From: Alviniconcha marisindica
Lineage: Eukaryota; Mollusca; Gastropoda; Provannidae
Assembly: GCA_018857735.1 (NCBI GenBank)
Contig: JABMCL010003271.1
Location: 1,483,501-1,547,500 of the forward strand
Direction: 5' to 3'
DNA length: 64,000 bases
Position numbers and translations under genes: made by a program. The notes under the pieces were generated by a model. That model saw nothing but the letters and a program-made list of their open reading frames with translations, was not told where the DNA came from and did not search any database. How positions within the stretch are numbered: the stretch's first letter is position 1; every line of letters begins with the position of its first letter. Positions 2,051 through 60,367 of the stretch are shown here, in pieces.

Positions 2051-3915
2051 TCAGGATGACAGAGATATATATACAGTCACATGACATACAGCACAATTAT
2101 GGATAAAATCAATAAATGCAGATGAGTTTCTGAGTTAGTGTGTTTAGAATAAAGTCTTATTATTGTCTTCGTGATGCATATGTGGGTTCTTTTCTTTGAA
2201 CATATGTCATAATTACTCATTTCTTGGGCTATCTATGTAATAAAAATGCCTCTGAAAGAGTACATAAGGCAAATCAAAATAATTCACAATGTAGCACTCA
2301 AAATAATGTTCTAAGTTAGGGCTCTTTGGCAAATCACACAATATTCCTAGGCCTGAAACTACAGTGAAAGTACCATTTAAAAAGCCCTACCCAAAAATAT
2401 TCTAACTCCTGAAAAAGCTATCTAACTCCTTTCTCAAATATGCAAATTATAGCATGCAGGATTGGGAAATATTCTTAAGTCCTGTAAAAGTGTAAGGTCA
2501 GAGAAGTATTCCGGGAAATATTCTAAATCCTACGTGGTCCAGAAATATTCCGCTACTGTCATCACAGTTCATGTGGTTTGAATTGTTTACTGGGGGGGGG
2601 GGGGGGGGCAGAATTGCAGGAGTGCCTGTGCCATAAATATATGGTTATATGTATTATATGTAGGGTATGCATGTATGCAACTTATGTGGTTGCATGTTTG
2701 TGGTGGGGGGGGGGGGGGGGGAGATTTTGTCAATCTTATTGTCATGAGCCATTTGTGATGTATTTATTTCACTCATTTTGTGAACTAATGTGTGTTGAAA
2801 TGTATTGTGATGAGCCACTAAATGTTAGTATTTCAGGTCATATGACTTCTTTTCTACATTAAATTTTAACCGATTATGTGTAAGGACAGTTTTAATATCA
2901 ATTTTCTTCCAAACAGTACATTTAAATTCAACCCAAAGTAAATTGCTTTCATAAAAATAAAAAATAAAGTTACAGTGACTGAAGTTCTTAAGCTACTCTA
3001 CCCATGTTTTTATGCTATTAATTTTTTTAATTTTTTTAAATGAGGGAAAAAAGGAGCAATACGCATGTCAGTGAATAAAAAGAAGACATATTTTTTAGTG
3101 TGATTTGAGTGGGCTGGGTAGCAGGACTGATGTAGTCACCTGAAGTCATACTGTTTTTTGGTCGTCTGATGTCTAATTCCCTATTGACCAAACTGGAACA
3201 ACAACCTCAAGAAAATTGACTGCAAGCATTCTGGAAAAAGATCAAAACACATAAAAGGTTAAGATACTTTTTTTGTTAGGACAAAAACAACAACAACAAC
3301 AACAACAACAAAGGTGCACAGTTTTGGCTTAGACATCCCTGACTTGGTAAACAGTTTTGGCATGATAACATTAACAATTTTAAAAAACCCACTTGGTTGT
3401 GCATGGACATTTTCCTGTTATGGCGATCAGGTAATTGTGTATCTGCAACAGTAACATTCACCAAACATGAAGCTGGTTTCGAACCTTCTGCTGGATTTAG
3501 GGTGCTGCAAAGTGAAGCTGATACCCCCCCCCCCCCCCACAAAAAAAAGAACAAAGATTGATGAAGCTTGCCACGTGATTATAATACTGCTGCTGCCTGT
3601 CGTTCTCTATGAATCATTGAATGTCTCAGACTGCAATAGTTCATCTGTCTCACAATGTGCTTTGCATACATTCAGCACTAACTGATTGTGGAGTACAATC
3701 ATTGCAACATCTGTTGCAAGGGATTTACACTGGAACACAAAATCTTCAGAATTCCTGATCCACTAACCCATTGTGCAATTGTTTTGTACTAGGCTTGGCA
3801 CAGGATCTGTATTTCTTCCATATTTGGACAGAGCGAGAATTGGAGAAAAAAACTTGGCTTTGAATTGATGGATGGAGAGTAAATACAGTTTTATTAAACC
3901 TATATATATTTATAA

Positions 3916-17200: not shown

Positions 17201-19470
17201 TTAACAGTGATGTTCAGATTGTCTCATGGCTGACATTTAGCTGCGTGTATTGTAAGACTGAATCTGTTATGTGTTACTTAGTGAGGTGGAATATGCCATG
17301 TGTGCAGGCGTCTGTGTGTGTGTGATGGGTGTGATCTAGTGAGTTTGCAGTTCTAAGCGAGAGCAGATGATTCTGGTGCGGGACTATAATATATATATAT
17401 ATATATATATCAACTCTAGTATTTTCAGAAATAGGCCATGTTGGCTGAGCATTGCCAGAACTCTGTGTGTGTGTGTGTATGTGTGTGTGTGAGTGTAACA
17501 TGGTTATTGTTTGATAAGCGATAATGGTAGACTACATACAATATTTAAGATTCTGTTTGTTTGAAAATGAAATGTATGTTAGTGTGGTTTTTGTCATAAG
17601 ATGCTTGTACAGTGCAGTGAGTTTAACACTGGCTAGAGAACAGCTCTTTATAAGAATTATTTATTATTATTAATATTTATATACATGTATACTTTTGCTT
17701 GTGATGAGGTGATCTGTGTTTTGCCCTTATATGATCTTCACAGTTATTGGGAACTAACATATCAGGGGAGTAACTTATTTCATTCTGGCACCGCGACAGC
17801 ACTGTAAACACTGGGAACGAATGAGTGTTCATTCATTTCAATACATTTCAGGCAATGGCGGCTCCACCCTCGTAGCACTGGAGTTCCTGCATGGTGTGTA
17901 TGGGGACAGCCTGTACCAACACAAGATCCTGCTTATCCATGCCGGAGGCTGGAGCCAGCGTATGCCTAGCGCCACCATCCTGGGTAAGATCTTCGCTGCC
18001 ATTCCCCATGGGGAACCACTCTATCAGATGCTGGATCTTAAGCTGGCCATGTACTGCCCGCTGGTGCCTCACCTCGCTCCAGGCATCTTCCTCGTCTGTG
18101 CTGATGACTTCCTGGTGTACGATCTAGGTGAAGCTGCTGACTGGTCGATTCCAAGCTTGGGTTTTACAGCGCTCGCGCACCCCTCTCCCATCAGTGTGGG
18201 CCGGATGCATGGTGTGTATGTTGTTGACGGTGCAGAAAAGATTGACACCAAGAAACCAGTGGTGGTTGTGGAGTGCCTGGAGGTTCTGCAGAAGCCCTCT
18301 GATGACCGCATGAAAAGCAGAGGAGCATTGCTGAAGTCAGAAACTGGTTGTTTTGAGTTTGCAGATGGGATCCGCTTGGATGGAGAAGTGGTGTACACGG
18401 ACAGCTGTTTTTTCTTTGGTGTGGATGTGGTGAAGAGACTGCTGAGGCTCAAAAAGGAGATTGGAACCATCAGCTGTGAGATCGATGCTTATGGAGATTT
18501 CCTGCAGGCGCTGGGACCCCGTGCCACTGACGACTACATCTTCAACACTGCCAACATCTCGCAGATGTCCTCTGACCTGACGCAGGTGAGAAAAAAGGTC
18601 TTTGGCGCTATGCGCGGATGTGACATCCACCTCCTCATTCTCAATGCATCCAAATTCATCCACATCGGCACCACCAAAGAGTTGATCTATCATTTCTGCC
18701 AGGATGGGGAGTTTCAGTCCCAGATGGCCTTGCAGAGGGATGTCTTTAACTGCTGGCAGAAGGGAGAAGGGTCAGACATGGGAAACGGAAATGGCAGAAA
18801 GAACACGAGCTCCAACTCTGAGAGGACCCAGGGGTGTGTGATGCACTCGGTTCTGATGGTTTCATCATCTGTGGCACCCACCTCAGTGGTGGAATACTGT
18901 CGCTTTGATGTCGCAGTAACTGTGGAGGATGGCACTATCATCAGCAACTGCCAGTGGCTGCAGTCTGAAAATCCTTGCTCTCAGCCTCTCATCTTGCCAG
19001 CAGAGACGTTCCTCCACACTGTTTCGGTCCTGCACCAGGGTGTCACATACTACGTCACCATCTTCTTTGGCATCTCAGACAATCTGAAGACATCGGTTCC
19101 AGCTCCCAGCCTTGCCAGTCTCTCCTTCCTCAAGACAACGCTGGGCTCCGCTCTCAAGCACTGGGGGCTGTCAGCAGAGGATGTTTCTCCTCATGCACGC
19201 AGGTCAGAGGCCAAGGTCAGTCTGTGGACGCTCAAGTTGTACCCTGGCACCGCCACAATGACGCAGTCTTTGGAGTTGGCACTCGACATGCTTTCATGTG
19301 TGCAGAATAAATGCTCACTGTCAAAATCCTTAACACCAAACGATGGCGCTTTCTTTTCTCTCTCCGATGCGCTTGCTCAGAAAGACGTTGCCACGATGCT
19401 CAACTTCCGCAGACAACTCTTTGACGAGATCCAGTCGAGTCGAGCCCAGACTGTAAAGGCTGCATGCTGA
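13076..19470 (+). CDS. FPGT: Fucose-1-phosphate guanylyltransferase (GDP-L-fucose pyrophosphorylase), three exons
   Basis: FPGT joins L-fucose-1-phosphate and GTP to give GDP-L-fucose and pyrophosphate, a cytosolic step of the fucose salvage pathway. Coding exons are 13076-13139, 16672-16848 and 17852-19470. They join in phase 1 at both introns with GT-AG borders, giving 619 aa against about 590-610 in vertebrates. The ATG has G at -3 and G at +4. The order matches the family: a short basic helical N-terminus (MRRLLEDYKSLRG), VVITTADE near residue 37, the Gly-rich nucleotide-binding motif GNGGSTL at 81-87, HAGGWSQR at 110-117 with GKIF following, CADDF, and CEIDAYGDFLQALGP near 289-303. The C-terminal region fits the fucokinase/FPGT family (PF07959). 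A Gly/Asn/Ser-rich insertion near residues 390-405 looks longer than in the human protein. Identification is secure; exon 1 is supported by phase and resemblance. Confidence 0.95.
13165..13240 (+). other. tRNA-like sequence (Pol III A and B box), probably a SINE head or tRNA relic
   Basis: Within FPGT intron 1, GTGGCTGGTTGGCTAATGC resembles an A box/D arm, and GGGTTCGACTCC is a near-perfect B box/T arm. Between them CTGTAAA could be a GTA anticodon loop. The anticodon stem pairs poorly and no good acceptor stem is seen, so a tRNA-derived repeat is more likely than a working tRNA. Confidence 0.45.
13865..13925. repeat. Fragment of the ACGTCCACAGAAACC dispersed family
   Basis: CAGTAAGTAAACATAGTGCT followed by GTCCACAGAAACCATAAGGC and TTATTAGGGAC matches 1970-2050 and the start of the 12,431 repeat. 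It lies in FPGT intron 1. Confidence 0.6.
14084..14284. repeat. GT microsatellites
   Basis: Two long (GT)n tracts (about 14158-14214 and 14240-14284), preceded by shorter GT runs and a CTAGTAGTA palindromic tract near 14,040-14,070. They lie in FPGT intron 1 and account for the Cys/Val and Thr/His open frames. Confidence 0.95.
15145..16352. repeat. 80-bp minisatellite, about 15 copies, in FPGT intron 1
   Basis: The unit starts GAAAGCTTGATGCTAAATCA and repeats every 80 bp with very few differences: CCAGTTG instead of CGTTG in the first and a late unit, and single substitutions near 15,901, 15,989 and 16,255. This near-uniformity indicates recent amplification or active homogenisation. The unit shows no resemblance to FPGT exons. 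Confidence 0.97.
16672..16848 (+). CDS. FPGT: FPGT coding exon 2
   Basis: Acceptor TCTCACTGCAG precedes 16672 and the donor GT is at 16849. It encodes RSCKSGCGSTMWTAVVITTA, then the segment ending DPPGPRL, the region just before the GNGGSTL motif. The last base supplies position 1 of the split Gly codon. Confidence 0.93.
   Translation, partial: EGVARVAVGAPCGLLWSSQQQMKRSAKPLSNRSKTKMTAGNCPVIFRFMLCLTHPDPG
17085..17505. repeat. Simple repeats in FPGT intron 2
   Basis: Poly-C near 17090-17107, scattered (CA)n, (TA)n at 17389-17410 and (GT)n at 17463-17492. No other feature is seen in this intron. Confidence 0.85.
17852..19470 (+). CDS. FPGT: FPGT coding exon 3 (catalytic and C-terminal part)
   Basis: Acceptor CATTTCAG ends at 17851 and the exon is open to TGA at 19468-19470. 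It carries 539 of the 619 codons, including GNGGSTL, HAGGWSQR, GKIF and CEIDAYGDFLQALG. Such a long terminal exon is also typical of vertebrate FPGT. Confidence 0.97.
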
Positions 19471-39300: not shown

Positions 39301-42236
39301 GGGACAAGGCCCGAACACATGGGACAAACGGACATGACCATTCCAACGTATCCCATTAACTTATCAAGACACAACATAAACACAACTGCAGGTCAACACC
39401 CAAACTCCAAGCATTGGTTTACGACATCCTTCCTTCAACCACTGCCATATTTAGTTATGTCATAGGTTCCTGAAAATTGTCAGCTCACGAGCAGTTTTTC
39501 GTTGGTGCTCAAACAGTGGTAAGTTTGTTACAAACGACTCAAATAAAACAAGGCGTGCCATTCACAGCCGCCAACAAAGTTTACACCAGCACAAATAAAA
39601 CCACAATCATTTGAATCGAGACGGAACTCTTTTTCTCTCTTTCTTTTTTACCTGGGGTGGAGGCGTCTCATGTTTATGTGGGTGCTTGGGCACTAGGCTG
39701 CTTCCACAGTCATATTAGTACCCAAACCTTTCGGAGGGCGCTGACCATGAAGTGGACAGCTGTGTGGAGATAAAGAGTGCCCCTTCAGTGGCATAACGAA
39801 ATCTGGCAGAGTTTGGAGGAAGGTGCCGGAAAGCAATGTTCAGAGTGTGGTCAACACCATTACAAGATACTTAATTTTTTATGTTTTTGCCAAAAAACAA
39901 AACAATATAAAAACAACCCCACCGCAGAACTGACACTAGTGACAGAAAATAAAACAGCACAACATGAAAGTCCAGTGTGAACTGTGATGGTCTCCATTGC
40001 CTGTGTTAATGGTGTGCAGTGAACAGTCTCTCATTCTCACCTTTCATCATTTCCTCATCCAGAGCAAGGAACCCTTGTCGAATGGCTTCACTCACATTGC
40101 CTCGGGCTGAAACATCAAACACAAGCTTTTTGCATCGAGTATTTGTATTCATGCAAATCACCACTGAGACATAATTCTTGTGTGTCCCAACACCTCAAAA
40201 GTTATTAAGTTCTCCTGTGAATGGATGCACCACTGTGCATTTAACACAAAGTGTGTGTTTGCCACATACTGCTTGAGCGGTAGTTACAGAGTAAGTGACA
40301 AAAGGTCATGCCACTGAACTTTAAGAAAAAAATAAAACCTATTTTTCTTTCTTTTTAAATGTCATTATCACGATCATGCATCTTGTTCACCATTTTACAG
40401 ATACAACTATTTGACGAAGTGATATTACATGTTATTCTGACACAGCTATTTTCTTTTCTTTTTTTAATTTGCTAGTTTCAGGTGGCATTTTTTAAAATTT
40501 CCTTCTTTTTTTTTTTAACCTCAGGAAGGGAGCTTTTGTATGCGACCATGTTTCCATTTCTGCTACTCTTTGCTGCCCACCTTGTGAATGAACACAAGAG
40601 TGCACACTGACAGTAAACACAGCCCAGGTGACGACTACGATATTTAACATACAGTGTACACTCACAGTAGGCTGCCTGGGAGATGACTTGTTTGTGCAGA
40701 TGGTTGCCTGCATAGTGAGCTACTTTTACCCCTGAAACAGAAAACAATTCCAACATTAACTTTAAAATGTATTGTACTGTGTAGACTATAGCTCAACCCA
40801 AGCTATGTCATCATGAAAAGCTTCAATCTTAAAATTCTGAAGTCAAGGAATCAAAAATGGCATTTGCTTGCCTTCTGTGTGCATTGTGCGTAGACCATAC
40901 AAGATAAAAACAAACAAAAATACTGCACACTCTCCCCACCCTTCCTTCTAATAGTTAATACTTGTAAACATAACCCTTCTCCCTTCCACATCATACACTC
41001 ACAGTCCACTCTCTGCCCTTTCTCACACAGATGCACGCACACACACACACACAGGGTGATAATGCCCCACCCCACGCACACACACGTGTATGCACAGAGC
41101 TTACCCCCATGGCCATCAAATACTCCAAAGAAGCTGGCATCCTTATCACCAGGTAGAGTGAGGAGATGGGTGTGGGCATCCTCCATGTCTAATAAAGTTC
41201 AGGATAAACATTGCGCTCTGGATTTATAAACACAGTTCTTCCCAAAGAGATTAACTGAATTACAAGCATAACTCTGTTTTTGTCAATGAAAATGAATGTT
41301 ATTCAATGATTCATGGCTTCAGGTTTGCAGATGACGGGACAAGAAGAGCAAATTTTACACTCAGAATCAGATGAAACATTCAAATGCAAAACTTGACAAA
41401 AAGTGTTTGTCAGCTATGGTCACACCAGTCGCACAAAGCATACTGCGTATGATCTTGCTATGTGGCAACCATTACCATACACCTTTCTTTTTCTTTTTTT
41501 AACTACGATGAACAATCTACAAAATACAGTTTGCAATTCCTTAATTAATGTTTCTGACAATACTGACAGTGACACACTTATGGCCTTGAAACGAGGTCAA
41601 AGTCACCAAGCCTGGTATGAACCTGTAGACCCAGAGCAAAGATATTATCATGCAAAGTTTGAAAGACCTTAAAAAGTGTTCACAAACAACTAGCAAACTA
41701 GCAAATCAGAAAACATGTCAATTATCTCTACTGAATATAATTATGTGCAAGCCAAACATAATGATATAAATAATCTAGATATGTAAATTGTAATAAAAAA
41801 ATATGCCAAGTTTCAACTTAATCAAAAAAAGATCAAAACAATTTCAGTTAAAACTATCTGACATTGCTGTGACCTTGAAATAAGGTCAAAGTGACTGAAA
41901 ATGAAAGTGGCATGAATGAACAGGTAAAGGTCGATGAGAAGTTCATTAGCTGCCAAAGTGCCATCATGCAAATTTTGACACAAAACTATCATATAATTCA
42001 TTAACTGTGTTGTCCAAGAAAACTGCAATGTTAAAGTTTTCAACATGCCTGGACACTCAACTGGCAAACAGGCCAGCGATCGGCCAGTTCAGCCAGTGAG
42101 CTACTGCAGTCATGAGTCACCAGTTAAGGATACTGATTCTCCATCCCTGCATGCATGATGAGCCCACCTTCACTTGGCTGTTTTCACACTTGAAGGAATC
42201 TTTGGTGGTCACCGGCTCTGACAACGTCTGCCCCAT
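36190..42236 (-). CDS. PP2C-family (PPM) Ser/Thr protein phosphatase, nine coding exons
   Basis: A metal-dependent phosphatase that removes phosphate from Ser/Thr of proteins. Coding exons on the minus strand: 42236-42134, 41188-41105, 40731-40666, 40106-40041, 38925-38852, 38554-38413, 38007-37924, 37044-36899 and 36390-36190. All borders are GT-AG and phases agree throughout, giving 321 aa. Metal-site residues are present: E37-D38 in MEDAHTH, D59-G60 in DGHGG, D228 in ACDGIWD, D277 in GCDNMT; GDSRA is at 135-139. It resembles C. elegans T23F11.1 and its animal relatives in length and sequence rather than vertebrate PPM1A/B, lacking a long C-terminal extension. The MGQTLSEPVT start fits an N-myristoylation signal (Gly2, Ser6), suggesting membrane attachment. 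An acceptor-like AG two bases before the ATG suggests an upstream 5' UTR exon, not located. Confidence 0.95.
36899..37044 (-). CDS. PP2C coding exon 8
   Basis: Encodes AYPDVIEKPVTADHEFV, LLACDGIWDVLTNQEVVEFV and RARIAQRMEPDV. The donor GTGAGT follows at 36898. It contains the metal ligand D228. Confidence 0.95.
37924..38007 (-). CDS. PP2C coding exon 7
   Basis: Encodes NLALSRALGDFVFKKNEKKR then PEEQIVT. NLALSRALGDF is the highly conserved PP2C motif. Borders are TTGTTGCAG and GTAGAA. Confidence 0.96.
38413..38554 (-). CDS. PP2C coding exon 6
   Basis: Encodes GNVGDSRAVASVAGEVEQLS, FDHKPSNEVESRRIIAAGG and WVEFNRVNG. The GDSRA and DHKP motifs are diagnostic. The donor is GTGCGC, weaker than the others. 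Confidence 0.96.
38852..38925 (-). CDS. PP2C coding exon 5
   Basis: Encodes DDTLKDDLAGTTAVVVLLKD then GKMYC. The GTTAVVVL strand is conserved in PP2C. Phase 1 in, phase 0 out, with donor GTATGT. Confidence 0.95.
39300..39830 (-). mobile_element. Dispersed repeat of about 500 bp, copy 2, in PP2C intron 4
   Basis: Inverted relative of 30,690-31,200; see that entry for shared landmarks. It lies in the intron between the exons at 40,041 and 38,925. Confidence 0.7.
40041..40106 (-). CDS. PP2C coding exon 4
   Basis: Encodes (S)RGNVSEAIRQGFLALDEEMM then K. Phase 1 on both sides; acceptor ATGTTTCAG, donor GTGAGA. Confidence 0.93.
40666..40731 (-). CDS. PP2C coding exon 3
   Basis: Encodes GVKVAHYAGNHLHKQVISQA then AY, directly following DGHGG. 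Acceptor TGTTTCAG, donor GTGAGTG, phase 1 on both sides. Confidence 0.94.
41105..41188 (-). CDS. PP2C coding exon 2
   Basis: Encodes MEDAHTHLLTLPGDKDASFF then GVFDGHGG, with three of the metal-site residues. The acceptor is TTTATTAG and the donor is GTAAGC. Confidence 0.96.
41560..41990. repeat. Two copies of a palindromic AAGGTCAAAGT repeat in PP2C intron 1
   Basis: GGCCTTGAAACGAGGTCAAAG (near 41,582) and GTGACCTTGAAATAAGGTCA (near 41,870) head similar stretches, each followed by ATCATGCAAA-like sequence. A third relative is near 32,998. This is a dispersed family of unknown class. Confidence 0.5.
42134..42236 (-). CDS. PP2C coding exon 1
   Basis: Encodes MGQTLSEPVTTKDSFKCENS, QVKVGSSCMQGWRI and the first base of the next Asn codon. 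The donor GTATCC is at 42133. VGSSCMQGWR is strongly conserved in this subfamily, which fixes the frame. The ATG has G at -3 and +4. Confidence 0.94.
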
Positions 42237-53377: not shown

Positions 53378-53532
53378 TCATGTCGGCCTGCCCTTGGGAA
53401 GGACGTGGCGATGTAGAGTGCAGCACACTGCACGTGCTGCCCGCAAGCACAAGACGCACAGCAGCTCCAGAAATTCGGCCACCGACAGCAGGCTGGCTCC
53501 GATGAACAGTCCCATCTGACCGCCCAGCGTGC
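53378..53532 (-). CDS. DEG/ENaC last exon (TM2 and C-terminus)
   Basis: Acceptor TTTTTCAG precedes 53532. Encodes (G)TLGGQMGLFIGASLLSVAEF, LELLCVLCLRAARAVCC and TLHRHVLPKGRPT, ending at TGA 53380-53378. The first 16 bases are tandemly repeated upstream; see the array at 53,533-53,880. Confidence 0.93.
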
Positions 53533-53933
53533 CTGAAAAACACATCACCCTTAAAGTTGAAAAACACACACACCGCCCGTGAAGTTGACCGCCCAGTGTG
53601 CCTGAAGAAAATACATCACTCGTCAAGTTGACCGCCCAGCGTGCCTGAAAAACACACCACCCTTAAAGCTGACCGCCCAGCGTGCCTGAAAAACACACCA
53701 CCTGTCAAGTTGACCGCCCAGTGTGCCTGAAAAACACACCGCCCTTAAAGTTGACCGCCCAGCGTGCCTGAAAAACACATCGCCCGTCAAGTTGACCGCC
53801 CAGCGTGCCTGACTAACACCTGTGACCGCTTAGTATACCTGACAAACACATTAATTTTGACCGCTTAGTATTCCCGACAAACACAAACAAACACAGTTGA
53901 CCACAACACACTCACACACACTCACACACACAC

Positions 53934-53970
<37 letters not shown>

Positions 53971-55829
53971 CACGCACGCACGCACGCACACTTTACTGGA
54001 ACTCGCTTTTTCCGGGCCGTGTGTGTCTTGTATCAATGAGTGTGGATGTAGCTGTGCAATAATGCATGGCTTAGTTTGCATATATTTTAAATTATTGGCC
54101 TCGACTAGCACTGTGTGACTGATCTGATGTTTTTTCTTTCTCGGTGTGCATGTGTATGCCTCAGCGTGTATCTGTTTCCCCTGTGTTGTCTTGTTGCTCA
54201 GTGTAGGCCTTGACTGTGTGACTGCTCTGGTGCCTTTCCATCTCGGTGTGCATGTGTGTATGCCTCAACGTGTGTGTCAGTGTGCACGCACTCAAGCGGG
54301 TGCGTTTGCCGTGTCAGTGTAATGGTATCTCACCCAAAATGGTATCCAGGGTGTATTCTGGAACATGACGCACCTCGTAGCGCACCAAGTCGTCGTAAAA
54401 TATCTTCAGGTTCAAGTAGTTCTTCCTGAAAGTAACATTCACTATAATAATATTAGCATATACAGCTGGGTAAGTCTAGTGTATCCATAATGCATACATA
54501 ATTTCACCTTGATAACCCATGAAAATGACAATGTACTAATTTTCCTACCCCTGATAATTATACCCTATGTGGTTGGTTGGGCTCAAAGCATCAACTAAGT
54601 ACTAATTTTGCGCTACGTACTATGCTGTACTGAGTAAACTTACACTTCTATTGTAGTGGTCAAACACGCTCACCTGCATGTCTACACACACAGCCTATAT
54701 ATAACCAGTGTTTTATGAGCCCAAATGCTTCTCCTCTTAACCATTGCCAAACACACATATAAAAATTATAATACGCACGACAACGAATCGAATCGGGTCA
54801 CTGATGGCGTAGGACAACAGACATCAGACTCTACTCGACACCGGTGACCTGAATTCGATCCAGGTCATTGGTTACTCTTGACGACACACTTCTTTCTCTG
54901 CTTGACACCGCTGACCTAAATTCGATCCAGGTCGATCATTGGTGTCCCATGGCAACACACTTCTTTCTCTGCTTGCCCCGGTGACCTGAATTCGATCCAG
55001 GTCATTGGTTACCTTTGACAACACACTTCTTTCTCTGCTTGGCCACGGTGTCCTAAATTCGGTCCAGGTCATTGGTTACCCTTGACAACACACTTCTTTC
55101 TCTGCTTGGTCCAAGTGACCTAAATTCGGTCCATGTCACTGGTTATCGTTGACAACACACTTCTTTCTCTGCTTGGCCCCAGTGACCTGAATTCGATCCA
55201 GGTCATTGGTTACCCATGACAACACACTTCTTTCTCTGCTTGACACCGCTGACCTAAATTCGATCCAGGTCGATCATTAGTGTCCCATGGCAACACACTT
55301 CTTTCTCTGCTTGGCCCCGGTGACTTGAATTAGATCCAGGTCATTGGTTACTCTTGACAACACACTTCTTTCTCTGCTTGGTCTAGGTGACCTAAATTCG
55401 GTCCAGGTCATTGGTTATGATTGACAACACACTTTTTCTCTGTTTGGCCCCAAGGATCTGAATTCGATCCAGGTCACTGGTTACCATTGACAACACACTT
55501 CTTTCTCTGCTTGGTCTAGGTGACCTAAATTCGGTCCAGGTCATTGGTTATGATTGACAACACACTTCTTTCTCTGCTTGGCCCCAGTGATCTGAATTCG
55601 ATCCAGGTCACTGGTTACCATGACAACACACTTCTTTCTCTGCTTGACCGCGGTGACCTAAATTCGATTCGGGTCACTGCATGGTTACCCATAGCAACGT
55701 GCATCTTACAGAGCTGTTCAACGTTTCTTTTTCTCTTCCCTTTCTTCTGTCTTCTTTTCTCAGACATTTAAGGGATCAGCCTTACGGGACACACACACGC
55801 ACACACACACACACACACACACAACACAC

Positions 55830-55987: not shown

Positions 55988-58900
55988 CACACGCACGCAC
56001 AAACGCACAAACGCAACGCACACACGCACGCGCGCGCATGTTATATACATGTTATATTAACAGAGAGGAAAACGCGCCAGAGAGACGGGGGGCATTCCTC
56101 TTGGTACCACTGTTTGGCCCGACCTCTTTTAGTCCCAGTTCTGGGACCGTTCCCATAATTGAGTTAGACAGCCCCTACAAATCCAGCCTTCTTGGCCCGT
56201 TACCACATTGTCTGGTCAAATATATGTATATATAATACCAGAGTTCTGGACCCACTCACACGGATTATTGGGAACTCGGAAGTTGTCCAGGGAACTAAGC
56301 CAGACCGAGCTGTCTAGCCCACAGAGGTCGATAATTATGCGACTAAATATGTACAGGGAGAGAGACCAGCACACATGCCAACCCCTCGCCTACTATAATG
56401 TTATTACGAACAGTAGCTATAGAGTGTATTGGTGTTGCTACTGAAGCCTTGAACACTTGGAAACTAAACTTGCTATTAAAACTGCGAGGTCGGTACTGAC
56501 TGCATGGACAAGATCTTTTGGATACATATGCAGGCAGCAAAGCTCGTGACTGCCAGAAACACAACTGCCATTAACCCCTTCACTGCTCCAGCCTGTAGAA
56601 TTTCCGGGCTGAAAATTCAGTGCACAAACACGCCCGCTAAAAGTATATTTTGGAGGTTCTGTAACAAATCTAATTTCAATATTGTGCGTTTCGATAAAAA
56701 AAAAAATCCCTTCACATACTAATGCGAAAAATAAAAACAAAAAGGCTTACGGATTCAAATTTCGCACTTTTACTGGGTCGTTCTCAAGTGGCATCATGGC
56801 AGTGAAAGGGTTAATGCCGGACTATACAGCACTATACAACTATTCAGTTCCAAAGAAAGATTTTGCATGAGTACGTGACTGTTAGGAACCTCCTCCGTCC
56901 GACCTGCTTGTGCCGACCTCGATGAGTTGCAGCCTCTCCATCACCTCCCGAGCGACGTCGGAGGGAAACAAGGCGACGGAGACTCTCTCTCGGTACTCGG
57001 TTTTCTGGCACAGGCGCGGGCACGGGCATTCAGTGTTGTTCACTCGTCGTTCCAGCAGAGCTGCAGGACAAACCTGACACTTCAGGCAAGGTTGCATAGG
57101 CTAGCAATGCAGCAACAGGACAAGCTTTACACTTCAGGCAGAGGTTGCATAGGCTAGCAATGCAGCAACAGGACAAGCTTTACACTTCAGGCAGAGGTTG
57201 CATAGGCTAGCAATGCAGCAACAGGACAAGCTTTACACTTCAGACAGAGGTTGCAGCAACAGGACAAACCTGACACTTCAGGCAGAGGTTGTATAGACTA
57301 GCAATGCAGCAACAGGACAAGCTTTACACTTCAGACAGAGGTGGTATAAGCTAGCAATGCAGCAACAGGACAAGCTTTACACTTCAGACAGAGGTTGCAG
57401 CAACAGGACAAGCTTTACACTTCAGGCAGAGGTTGCATAGGCTAGCAATGCAGCAACAGGACAAGCTTTACACTTCAGGCAGAGGTTGCAGCAACAGGAC
57501 AAGCTTTACACTTCAGGCAGAGGTTGCATAGGCTAGCAATGCAGCAACAGGACAAGCTTTACACTTCAGACAGAGGTTGCATAGGCTAGCAATGCAGCAA
57601 CAGGACAAATCTGACACTTCAGGCAGAGGTTGCAGCAACAGGGCAAACCTGACACTTCAGGCAGATGTTGCAGCAACAGGACAAACCTGACACTTCAGGC
57701 AGAGGTTGCAGCAATAGGACAAACCTGACACTTCAGGCAGAGGTTGCAGCAACAGGACAAACCTGACACTTCAGGCAGAGGTTGCAGCAATAGAACAAAC
57801 CTGACACTTCAGGCAGAGGCTGCATAGGCTAGCAATGCAGCAACAGGACAGGTTTTACACTTCAGGCAAGTTGAGGCTGCAAGGTGATGCTAGCAATGCA
57901 GCAACAGGACAAGCTTTACACTTCAGGCAGAGGTTGCAGCAACAGGACAAGCTTTACACTTCAGCAGAGGTTGCATAGGACTAGCAATGCAGCAACAGGA
58001 CAAGCTTTACACTTCAGGCAGAGGTTGCAGCAACAGGACAAGCTTTACACTTCAGACAGAGGTTGCATAGGCTAGCAATGCAGCAACAGGACAAGCTTTA
58101 CACTGCAGACAGAGGTTGCAGCAACAGGACAAGCTTTACACTTCAGAGGTTGCAGCAATAGGGCAAACCTGATACTTCAGGCAGAGGCTGCAGCAACAGG
58201 ACAAGCTTTACACTTCAGACAGAGGTTGTATAGACTAGCAATGCAGCAACAGGACAAACGTTACACTTCAGACAGAGGTTGAAGCAACAGGACAAGCTTT
58301 ACACTTAGACAGAGGTTGCATAGACTAGCAATGCAGCAACAGGACAAGCTTTACACCTCAGACAGAGATTGCAGCAATAGAAAAATCTTTACATTGCAGG
58401 CAGAGGTTGCAACAATAGGACAAACTTAACACTTCAGGCAGAAGTTGCAGCAATAGAAACAATCTTTACATTTCAGGCAGAGGTTGCAACAAAAAAAAAT
58501 CCTGTACACTAGGTCAGTGGTTGCAACAAAAGAAAAGTAACAAATATTTGACACTTCAGACAGATGGTGTGCTAAGTAATAACTGGACAAGCTTTGACAC
58601 TTCAGGCAGAGGTTGCAGTAAAGAACACTAAGCCAAGATCTTTACACTTCGGGCAGAGTTTTGCTTGCAACAGACATATTGACTCAGCTACATGCAGACA
58701 AAGGACAAACTTACACTTCAGGCAGAGGTTGCATAGGCATGCAAGTTGGACAACATACAGACTTACACTTGAGCAGGGTTGCAGACACACTCCAGGACAA
58801 GCTTACACTCGGCAGAGGTTTCTCAAACACAATCGACAACTTACATTTCAGACAGTCTCAACACAGCCGTGGGACAAACTTTACACTTCTGGCAGAGGTT

Positions 58901-60367
58901 CCAACACAGCTGCGGGACAAACATTACATTGAAGGCAGAGGTTCCAGCACAGCTGTAGAACAAACCTTACATTCCAGGCAGAGGTTCCAACACAGCTGTA
59001 GAACAAACCTTACATTCCAGGCAGAGGTTCCAACACAGCTGTAGAACAAACCTTACATTCCAGGCAGAGGTTCCAACACAGCTGTAGAACAAACCTTACA
59101 TTCCAGGCAGAGGTTCCAACACAGCTGTAGAACAAACCTTACATTCCAGGCAGAGGTTCCAACACAGCTGTAGAACAAACCTTACATTCCAGGCAGAGGT
59201 TCCAACACAGCTGTAGAACAAACCTTACATTCCAGGCAGAGGTTCCAACACAGCTGTAGAACAAACCTTACATTCCAGGCAGAGGTTCCAACACAGCTGT
59301 AGAACAAACCTTACATTCCAGGCAGAGGTTCCAACACAGCTGTAGAACAAACCTTACATTCCAGGCAGAGGTTCCAACACAGCTGTAGAACAAACCTTAC
59401 ATTCCAGGCAGAGGTTCCAACACAGCTGTAGAACAAACCTTACATTCCAGGCAGAGGTTCCAACACAGCTGTAGAACAAACCTTACATTCCAGGCAGAGG
59501 TTCCAACACAGCTGTAGAACAAACCTTACATTCCAGGCAGAGGTTCCAACACAGCTGTAGAACAAACCTTACATTCCAGGCAGAGGTTCCAACACAGCTG
59601 CGGGACAAACCTTACATTCCAGGCAGAGGTTCCAACACAGCTGCGGGACAAACTTTACACTTCAGGCAGAGGTTCCAACACAGCTGTAGAACAAACCTTA
59701 CATTCCAGGCAGAGGTTCCAACACAGCTGTAGAACAAACCTTACATTCCAGGCAGAGGTTCCAACACAGCTGTAGAACAAACCTTACATTCCAGGCAGAG
59801 GTTCCAACACAGCTGCGGGACAAACTTTACACTTCAGGCAGAGGTTCCAACACAGCTGTAGAACAAACCTTACATTCCAGGCAGAGGTTCCAACACAGCT
59901 GTAGAACAAACCTTACATTCCAGGCAGAGGTTCCAACACAGCTGTAGAACAAACCTTACATTCCAGGCAGAGGTTCCAACACAGCTGCGGGACAAACTTT
60001 ACACTTCAGGCAGAGGCCCCCCAAACAGCTGTGCTATAAACTTTACACTTCGGGCAAAGGCTCTAATAATCTGCTAGATAAACTAATTGACACTTTAGGT
60101 AGATTTTCTACTACATCTATGGGACCACGTGCATGCTTCAGGCAAACAGTCTTCAAATAGGCACACTCTTCTGACAAATAGGCACACTCTTCATGGTACA
60201 TCAACAGCTGACGTTAACAAACCATTAGTTAAGTTCAACTTTCAAAGAATGTAGTGGACCAAACCAAGGCATGATTTAACAAGCAAGCTCTGTAGATTAC
60301 CTACCAGACTTCGCCAGATAGCAAGTGTACACATCTCGTAGCGTGCACAAGGGCAAATCAGGGTTTG
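53378..60367 (-). CDS. DEG/ENaC-family (ASIC-like) cation channel, last four exons
   Basis: This family forms trimeric plasma-membrane sodium channels gated by protons, peptides or force. Minus-strand exons seen are 60367-60305, 57060-56904, 54425-54334 and 53532-53378; phases agree at all three introns (1, 2, 1). They encode the end of the Cys-rich extracellular domain (NPDLPLCTLRDVYTC; then ERRVNNTECPCPRLCQKTEY and RERVSVALFPSD), the wrist segment (KNYLNLKIFYDDLVRYEVRH), and TM2 with the diagnostic GGQMGLFIGAS and a following SVAEFLELL. The GAS triplet is the selectivity-filter motif of the family. The protein ends about 26 residues after TM2 with a short Cys/Arg-rich tail. Exons for TM1 and most of the ectodomain lie beyond 64,000. 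ASIC, FMRFamide-gated and other ENaC-like subgroups cannot be told apart from this part alone. Confidence 0.9.
53533..53880 (-). repeat. 41-bp array carrying copies of the last-exon 3' splice site
   Basis: Read on the minus strand, each unit carries GTGTTTTTCAG followed by GCACGCTGGGCGGTCA, which is the real acceptor and the first 16 coding bases of the exon at 53532. Six good copies have their exon-like part starting near 53586, 53629, 53670, 53711, 53752 and 53793; two degenerate ones are near 53823 and 53858. The usual period is 41 bp. Confidence 0.92.
53905..53990. repeat. CA microsatellite
   Basis: (CA)n with GCACGCAC variants, inside the last channel intron. Confidence 0.95.
54334..54425 (-). 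CDS. DEG/ENaC penultimate exon
   Basis: Encodes (R)KNYLNLKIFYDDLVRYEVRH then VPEYTLDTILG, matching the family's segment just before TM2. Acceptor TTACTTTCAG, donor GTGAGA. Confidence 0.9.
54838..55690. repeat. 67-bp minisatellite, about 12 copies, in a channel intron
   Basis: Units contain GTGACCTGAATTCGATCCAG, GTCATTGGTTACC and GACAACACACTTCTTTCTCT. Substitutions are frequent. I see no resemblance to neighbouring exons. Confidence 0.93.
55785..56036. repeat. Long CA microsatellite
   Basis: About 250 bp of (CA)n with a few interruptions, in the same intron. The long Thr/His and Cys/Val open frames are artefacts. Confidence 0.97.
56037..56903. other. Channel intron sequence with nothing recognised
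   Basis: Unique-looking sequence without a conserved coding segment; only the donor end of the 57,060 exon borders it. Confidence 0.55.
56904..57060 (-). CDS. DEG/ENaC exon with the Cys-rich CPCPRLC segment
   Basis: Acceptor GTCCTGCAG precedes 57060. Encodes (A)LLERRVNNTECPCPRLCQKT, EYRERVSVALFPSDVAREVM and ERLQLIEVGTS plus two bases. The donor GTCGGA at 56903 is weak but is the one that gives the right phase. The C.CP..C..T.Y pattern is typical of the family. Confidence 0.88.
57061..58600 (-). repeat. 38/54-bp minisatellite derived from the adjacent splice acceptor
   Basis: On the minus strand the units read TGCCTGAAGTGTCAGGTTTG TCCTG, then TTGCTGCAACCTC. The first 25 bases are identical to the end of the native intron before the exon at 57060. 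About half of the units are 16 bp longer (with GCTAGCAATGCAGCAA on plus). Roughly 35 units, diverging toward 58,600. Confidence 0.93.
58600..60040 (-). repeat. 43-bp minisatellite carrying splice-acceptor-plus-exon copies
   Basis: On the minus strand each unit has TTTGTTCTACAG followed by CTGTGTTGGAACC. A subtype reads TGCCTGAAGTGTAAAGTTTG TCCCGCAG, then CTGTGTTGGAAC. This subtype matches the native intron-exon junction at 57,088-57,049 at about 35 of 40 bases. The core 58,930-60,010 has about 25 very uniform copies; 58,600-58,930 is degenerate. Confidence 0.93.
60305..60367 (-). CDS. DEG/ENaC exon encoding NPDLPLCTLRDVYTC
   Basis: Acceptor TTTTCCAG, donor GTAGGT. Encodes NPDLPLCTLRDVYTCYLAKS plus one base. 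The position matches the family's P....C segment between the CxC and CPCP motifs. It enters in phase 1, so at least one more exon lies upstream. Confidence 0.78.

Follow-up and report, generated by a model that had tools for sequence, protein, structure and literature searches.

We analysed a stretch of 64,000 nucleotides from the gastropod mollusc Alviniconcha marisindica (assembly GCA_018857735.1, contig JABMCL010003271.1, positions 1,483,501 to 1,547,500; hereafter the window), whose minus strand carries the last four exons (A–D; intron phases 1, 2, 1) of a DEG/ENaC channel gene. The 3,244-base intron between exons A and B (57061..60304, minus strand; coordinates are those of the window unless a contig is named) is almost entirely minisatellite, and a large part of this minisatellite consists of units that resemble the intron's own 3' border with exon B. 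The array is genuine, of a kind already described and of unusual extent: it is a molluscan example of the intron-exon border duplications that were named “mirages” in amphioxus (PMC3087553; this and the other papers are cited here from portions of their text), and it is one of many such arrays in the genes sampled from this genome. We read it as the product of neutral tandem amplification of a splice junction, which would be tolerated since splicing would use the exon-proximal copy, and we put the probability of this reading at about 0.78.

Spliced together, exons A–D encode an unbroken 154 amino acids that match the Pfam ASC family (E=5.8e-25) and align with ASIC2 (6l6p, E=5.8e-13) in a single alignment crossing all three introns. 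Exon A (…PLCTLRDVYTCYLAKS; 60305..60367, minus strand, as for all exons and arrays of the gene) ends at a phase-1 donor, TCTG/GTAGGT (the slash marks the border); exon B (LLERRVNNTECPCPRLCQKTEY…; 56904..57060) ends at a phase-2 donor, AGCAG/GTCGGA; exon C (KNYLNLKIFYDDLVRYEVRHVPEYTLDTIL; 54334..54425) was given an acceptor predicted from the reading frame and the ASIC length; and exon D (TLGGQMGLFIGASLLSVAEF…; 53378..53532) holds the second transmembrane segment and the stop codon. No further upstream exon of the gene appeared among the best 40 matches listed in a search that took in the adjoining 100 kb.

The array before exon B

There are 67 unit cores in intron A-B (at most 8 edits in 26 bases, the native one counted). 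The distal array (58856..60016) is made up of 27 units of 43 bp, 26 of them of the intron-exon border type CAG/CTGTGYTGGAAC. Degenerate units follow (58500..58856, limits approximate), and then a proximal array (57092..58500; 31 cores) of mostly 38- and 53-bp units with no exon-like part. The native exon B junction is one unit itself (57049..57091; 31 intron and 12 exon bases), and the triplet AAC both precedes this unit and ends it. The near-identity among the 43-bp units, as seen in one assembly, is compatible with ongoing turnover.

The original prediction, made from the letters of the window, had described the intron as nearly all minisatellite, with 25 intron bases identical in the 38-bp units and about 35 of 40 bases matching across the border in the 43-bp subtype; these descriptions were accurate, coordinates included. 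The exon B border matches the proximal array at 25/25 intron bases and at nothing past the border, and it is identical to the 43-bp array at 35/40 bases, with a score of 55. The self-alignment that had been proposed as a check was likewise favorable, since the highest score in 300 dinucleotide shuffles was 26. It had also been predicted that each 43-bp unit carries CAG and about 13 exon-like bases, so that about 25 decoy acceptors lie upstream of the real one. The numbers were close: CAG occupies the border position in 26 of the 27 distal units, the remaining one having CGG, and in these 26 it is joined to about 12 exon-like bases. The placement had to be corrected, as the exon-like decoys are limited to 58.9-60.0 kb, none of them closer than 1.8 kb to the real acceptor, and the proximal units have TTG where CAG would be expected (24/24 units fitting the search pattern, from 31 cores in all). 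The TTG in the units nearest the real acceptor may represent descent from one founder unit, or it may represent selection against near decoys.

The exon-like part of the 43-bp unit is short, and its resemblance to exon B depends upon register. Compared in register, 9 of 11 bases agree, which was equalled by 6e-5 of 200,000 shuffles and reached at 22 of 121,556 other window positions; with register ignored the match is weak, as 18/300 shuffles against the whole intron and 5/1,000 against the distal array reach its score. The resemblance could be accidental, with only the intron side of the junction being repeated; the proximal units do end before the border, twelve bases are few, and the position-free tests are weak. 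We regard such an accident as very improbable, because the in-register probability is about 6e-5 to 2e-4, and because plainly border-spanning arrays occur at exon D and elsewhere.

The array before exon D

A second junction-derived array precedes exon D (53545..53819; 53568-53819 by Tandem Repeats Finder, TRF), whose units, of the type TTTTTCAG/GCACGCTGGGCGGTCA, are about 41 bp long. Its six copies, which show small differences from one another, are spaced 41 bases apart (the last interval is 43) and set decoy acceptors at 53808, 53767, 53726, 53685, 53644 and 53601, each with CAG and 16-17 bases of the exon sequence coding for TLGGQ. The exon D border is identical to one unit at 42/44 bases (score 78; maximum 25 in 1,000 shuffles), and the first 17 bases of exon D are by themselves identical to a unit (score 34; maximum 26 in 1,000 shuffles). 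The repeated TLGGQ begins the stretch that aligns with GDIGGQMGLF of ASIC; since the repeated part is coding and aligned with ASIC, it is clear that at D the exon came first. Across about 25 intron and 16 exon bases, the putative competing acceptors in this array are close to identical.

Splice signals within the arrays

All acceptor scores given here were obtained with a generic matrix. The 26 decoys at B score 2.9-5.1 and the native acceptor 5.6, so that the per-unit scoring proposed in the original prediction placed every one of them below the real site; among the 182 AGs in the scanned stretch of intron A-B, five others score at or above the native level, two of them in the proximal array. 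An AG at 58187, within the proximal array, is one that scores above the native B acceptor. A donor-like AAT/GTAAGG is present in most 43-bp units and accounts for 22 of the 26 GTRAG sites that a scan of the intron returned; as the same units carry CAG, both kinds of splice signal are present in them.

The array might be functional, with decoys that compete with or buffer the real acceptor and whose use, by giving unproductive messenger RNA, would tune channel output. Any of the 26 decoys at B would, if used, lead to a stop 26 bases later, and five of the six at D would lead to an early stop, the nearest (53601) being in frame and adding 23 residues; moreover, repeat units reportedly serve as splice donors in human IFI6 (PMC4526556), and an intronic minisatellite of C. 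elegans is linked to alternative splicing through its association with genes for which multiple splicing choices exist (PMC4039745; border duplication does not figure in the portion of that paper covered). Against this, the B decoys score below the native site and are distant from it, the nearer units that fit the pattern have no CAG, and, as shown below, borders do not have copies more often than flanks do. A splicing-buffer function of the array is possible but unsupported, as is the competition for splicing that had been suggested; we consider a functional array unlikely.

Frequency of border-derived arrays in the genome

A search of the same assembly (817.6 Mb, 2,806 contigs) with PF00858 gave at least 54 matches. 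The survey set of 42 DEG/ENaC exon hits comprised 30 loci from this search, 8 further second-transmembrane exons and the 4 exons of the window. At least two same-strand copies of a hit's own exon, within 1,490 bases in one flank, were found for 15/42 hits, and the reverse strand gave 0/42. Exon B is not one of the 15 because its 12 exon bases fall under the threshold. Within this count flanks are shared by L033/L018, L026/L012 and L027/L015, and L033 is scored on the intron that already counts for L018. Stops interrupt the match at 8 of the 30 PF00858 loci; these loci may be pseudogenes or may extend into arrays. Two of the DEG/ENaC exon hits, L036 and L025 (C2682 and C1593), are reported to lie within open frames of 5,983 and 1,848 codons.

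When borders were curated by hand, 11/28 had at least two copies spanning the splice site, in a set that was partly picked for visible arrays; 30 borders had been intended, and the donors of L019 and L021, whose copies stand in the 42-hit survey, were left out. Less biased subsets gave 2/7 (borders in the window), 2/9 (other second-transmembrane acceptors) and 4/15 (the chaperonin borders described below). Acceptors are duplicated at L018, L020, L022, L036, L042 and L044, and donors at L020, L022 and L028; in the paralogues L020 and L022 (C244, around 1,523 and 1,965) one exon is flanked by junction-derived arrays on the acceptor side (57 bp) as well as on the donor side (25 bp). Kept apart from the spanning cases were the acceptors of L014 and L029 and one chaperonin donor, where the copies include no more than 3 exon bases beyond the site.

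Two chaperonin genes were also surveyed, with 15 of 16 borders tested (three of them placed one or two bases off). Spanning copies were found at 4/15 borders, two of these with only 6-7 exon bases. All four are acceptors of one gene, L050 (C2473:602300-612200), in which 13 copies span the acceptor of the exon starting DSRLVAGVAFKKTF and the best of them includes 25 exon bases; an array is also flush with a donor of this gene. The pattern is therefore not limited to channel genes.

Copies are not concentrated at borders. At least two copies were found for 22/83 segments taken at the edges of family hits, as compared to 93/209 random flank segments and 0/21 segments from exon interiors; in this comparison low-complexity segments were dropped (1/84 edge and 43/252 random), the sequence examined was 1,400 bases to one side for edge segments and 700 to each side for random segments, and the edges of family matches only approximate the true borders. 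Special targeting of borders was rejected on these figures. Array cover near exon edges is 18-37%, lowest directly beside the exon and mildly higher 50-200 bases upstream. Since borders are not enriched for copies, no special function needs to be invoked, and neutral amplification is favored. We give about even odds to the wider proposal that tandem amplification of splice junctions is a general and ongoing route of intron lengthening in this mollusc, affecting about one-quarter of tested borders, acceptors and donors alike, and reaching housekeeping genes.

Direction and proposed mechanism of amplification

The repeated part is coding sequence inside the family match at exon D (TLGGQ), at L018, L020, L022, L021, L042 and L044, and at one chaperonin exon; for this reason the direction, from exon to repeat, is clear at these sister cases, and the predicted lengthening of an intron by amplification of its splice junction is supported. 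At L042 (C244:755500-759500; 2,285-3,015) there are five extra acceptor copies that carry 62 exon bases; its paralogue L048, with the same exon start, has no copy in the 2,030 bases upstream. In the L042 array, TGAGCTGG is found at the left boundary and again where the unit ends in exon sequence; the retrieved portion of L048 has a single occurrence, within the exon. The unit edges share AAC at B, TCA at D and TGAGCTGG at L042. These short matches would fit tandem duplication between short matching sequences, three cases being few.

We infer the following course of events. A short stretch reaching across the end of the intron and the first exon bases would have been duplicated in tandem between short matching sequences, and the duplicated unit would then have been multiplied and homogenised by ordinary minisatellite turnover. 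Copies would accumulate on the intron side and leave with the intron, provided that the splicing machinery pairs the far end of the exon with the nearest acceptor, so that the protein would stay unchanged while the intron grew. Use of the exon-proximal acceptor is expected because the protein alignment is intact. On the simplest account, the arrays would be a neutral by-product of very active tandem amplification, which extends over much of the DNA that flanks the sampled exons; exon borders are not immune to it, and it would not be tolerated in exon bodies.

It could be argued that the repeat came first, i.e., that a minisatellite of the intron spread into exon B, and that the start of this exon was recruited from it. 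The first 12 bases of exon B encode a weakly conserved linker, the alignments with ASIC1, ASIC2 and PDPNaC1 are gapped near the start, and the exon-like match is short and, as noted, weak without register. The start of exon B nevertheless still aligns with ASIC2, the first gap coming about 10 residues in, and what is repeated at D and elsewhere is coding sequence of conserved DEG/ENaC or chaperonin segments; this order of events is accordingly quite unlikely in our estimate, somewhat more so than a functional array. Less likely again, and the least probable of the explanations weighed, is that a dispersed element (an introner or transposon) placed the repeat before exon B. Its attraction is that the units hold both CAG and a GTAAG motif, a combination that occurs in some intron-making elements. 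Dispersal over many loci, as expected of an introner, was not seen: when the assembly was searched at the DNA level, this site alone was hit (the search skips very common words, and its outcome is not proof), and in 2,059 cross-locus pairs the 99th percentile of the score was 25, with the best eight pairs listed joining related or neighbouring loci.

Several points weigh against neutral amplification of the junction as we propose it. The direction at exon B is taken from the sister cases and from a protein alignment through the weakly conserved linker; that alignment has its first gap with ASIC2 at the position just given and one- or two-residue gaps nearer the start with ASIC1 and PDPNaC1, and these gaps slightly lower our confidence in this proposal and slightly raise that in a repeat that preceded the exon. 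The proximal units at B have no exon part, and a second history inside the array is therefore needed. Four of the six D decoys, like five AGs of intron A-B, equal or exceed the score of the respective native acceptor, so that the choice among them would have to depend on position; the use of the exon-proximal acceptor is itself a prediction. Finally, 7/9 of the second-transmembrane-type acceptors show nothing.

Comparison with known systems

The original prediction had held that no named description of such an arrangement exists. This was wrong, as amphioxus mirages are tandem units that span the 3' or 5' intron border, many with AG/GT signals, with unit lengths of 10-72 and 150-160 bp and with units homogenised within a cluster (PMC3087553, PMC3902484); the second of these papers adds troponin C and PGBD5. 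The molluscan arrays resemble them in being minisatellite-like and tandem; in having units that span the border and contain the splice signal (26 units at B, 6 copies at D); and in including the authentic border, which at D is adjacent to the copies and at B is a full unit whose direct neighbours lack the exon part. They differ in the mollusc host, in the 26 border-type units within one array, in the presence of two arrays in one gene, and in affecting 15/42 exon hits of one family. Regular splicing at amphioxus mirages is supported by reverse transcription-polymerase chain reaction (PMC3087553); at the molluscan arrays it is predicted.

The minisatellite of human IFI6 (6-16) provides several splice donor sites (PMC4526556, PMC2572611) and is alike in repeating a splice signal. 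It differs in that its signals are donors, with reported use of the repeat donors, whereas the arrays of exons B and D carry acceptors; donor-spanning copies as in IFI6 do occur in the mollusc genome, at L020, L022 and L028. Human segmental duplications contain variable internal tandem repeats at exon-intron boundaries that can form novel introns (PMC2812944), but these lie in recent primate duplicates, half of them in coding exons, whereas the molluscan arrays are intronic and include those of a chaperonin gene. Cone-snail introns are mentioned as containing simple repeats (PMC3862624). No report of mirages in a mollusc was found among the papers listed by the literature searches, most subscription papers being outside their reach. 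What is new is the mollusc host and the frequency of mirages; the kind was already known from amphioxus.

These results extend mirages from amphioxus to a mollusc genome and suggest that they are common there, a strongly constrained chaperonin gene included. Such arrays offer a concrete route for intron growth and, as was proposed for amphioxus (PMC3087553), for intron gain. Arrays of the exon D type would set nearly identical acceptors in competition and would constitute a natural test of positional splice-site choice; should the amplification be general, the genome would hold sets of near-identical splice sites chosen by position, and exon definition could be studied in them as in a natural experiment. 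Decoys of this sort may mislead gene-prediction programs.

Other features of the window and genome

Some exons recovered from the genome belong to a FaNaC gene; their best Protein Data Bank match was 7yvb (E=3.9e-37 and 1.6e-80), and 8on7 was matched with E=4.4e-9 and 1.9e-20. The first of these structures is the FaNaC of Aplysia californica and the second an annelid FaNaC; FaNaCs are described from molluscs and annelids (PMC11993918). The matches point to a mollusc, probably a gastropod, as the host.

Intron B-C contains a 67-bp minisatellite (54841..55676, minus strand). All seven tested borders of the gene, as 60-base segments, were compared with seven arrays using 300 shuffles each, and comparisons were listed if at most 6 shuffles were equally good. 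Derivation of the 67-bp array from a border was rejected, as its similarity to the seven borders was not above that of shuffles; a match of the exon A acceptor to the 43-bp array at 13/15 bases, equalled by 6/300 shuffles, was taken as chance. The exon C region (54314-54475, minus strand) matched two predicted public proteins, P0001 and P0002, at 95% and 87%, with 39-41% of the query covered, so that public data include close relatives or paralogues; the match extends a few residues upstream of the proposed exon C acceptor.

Elsewhere in the window, a 570-amino acid open frame on the plus strand (17758-19467) resembles a fucose-metabolism enzyme by its motifs, and a minus-strand segment (40854-41198) is, on the same footing, a putative PP2C-like exon.

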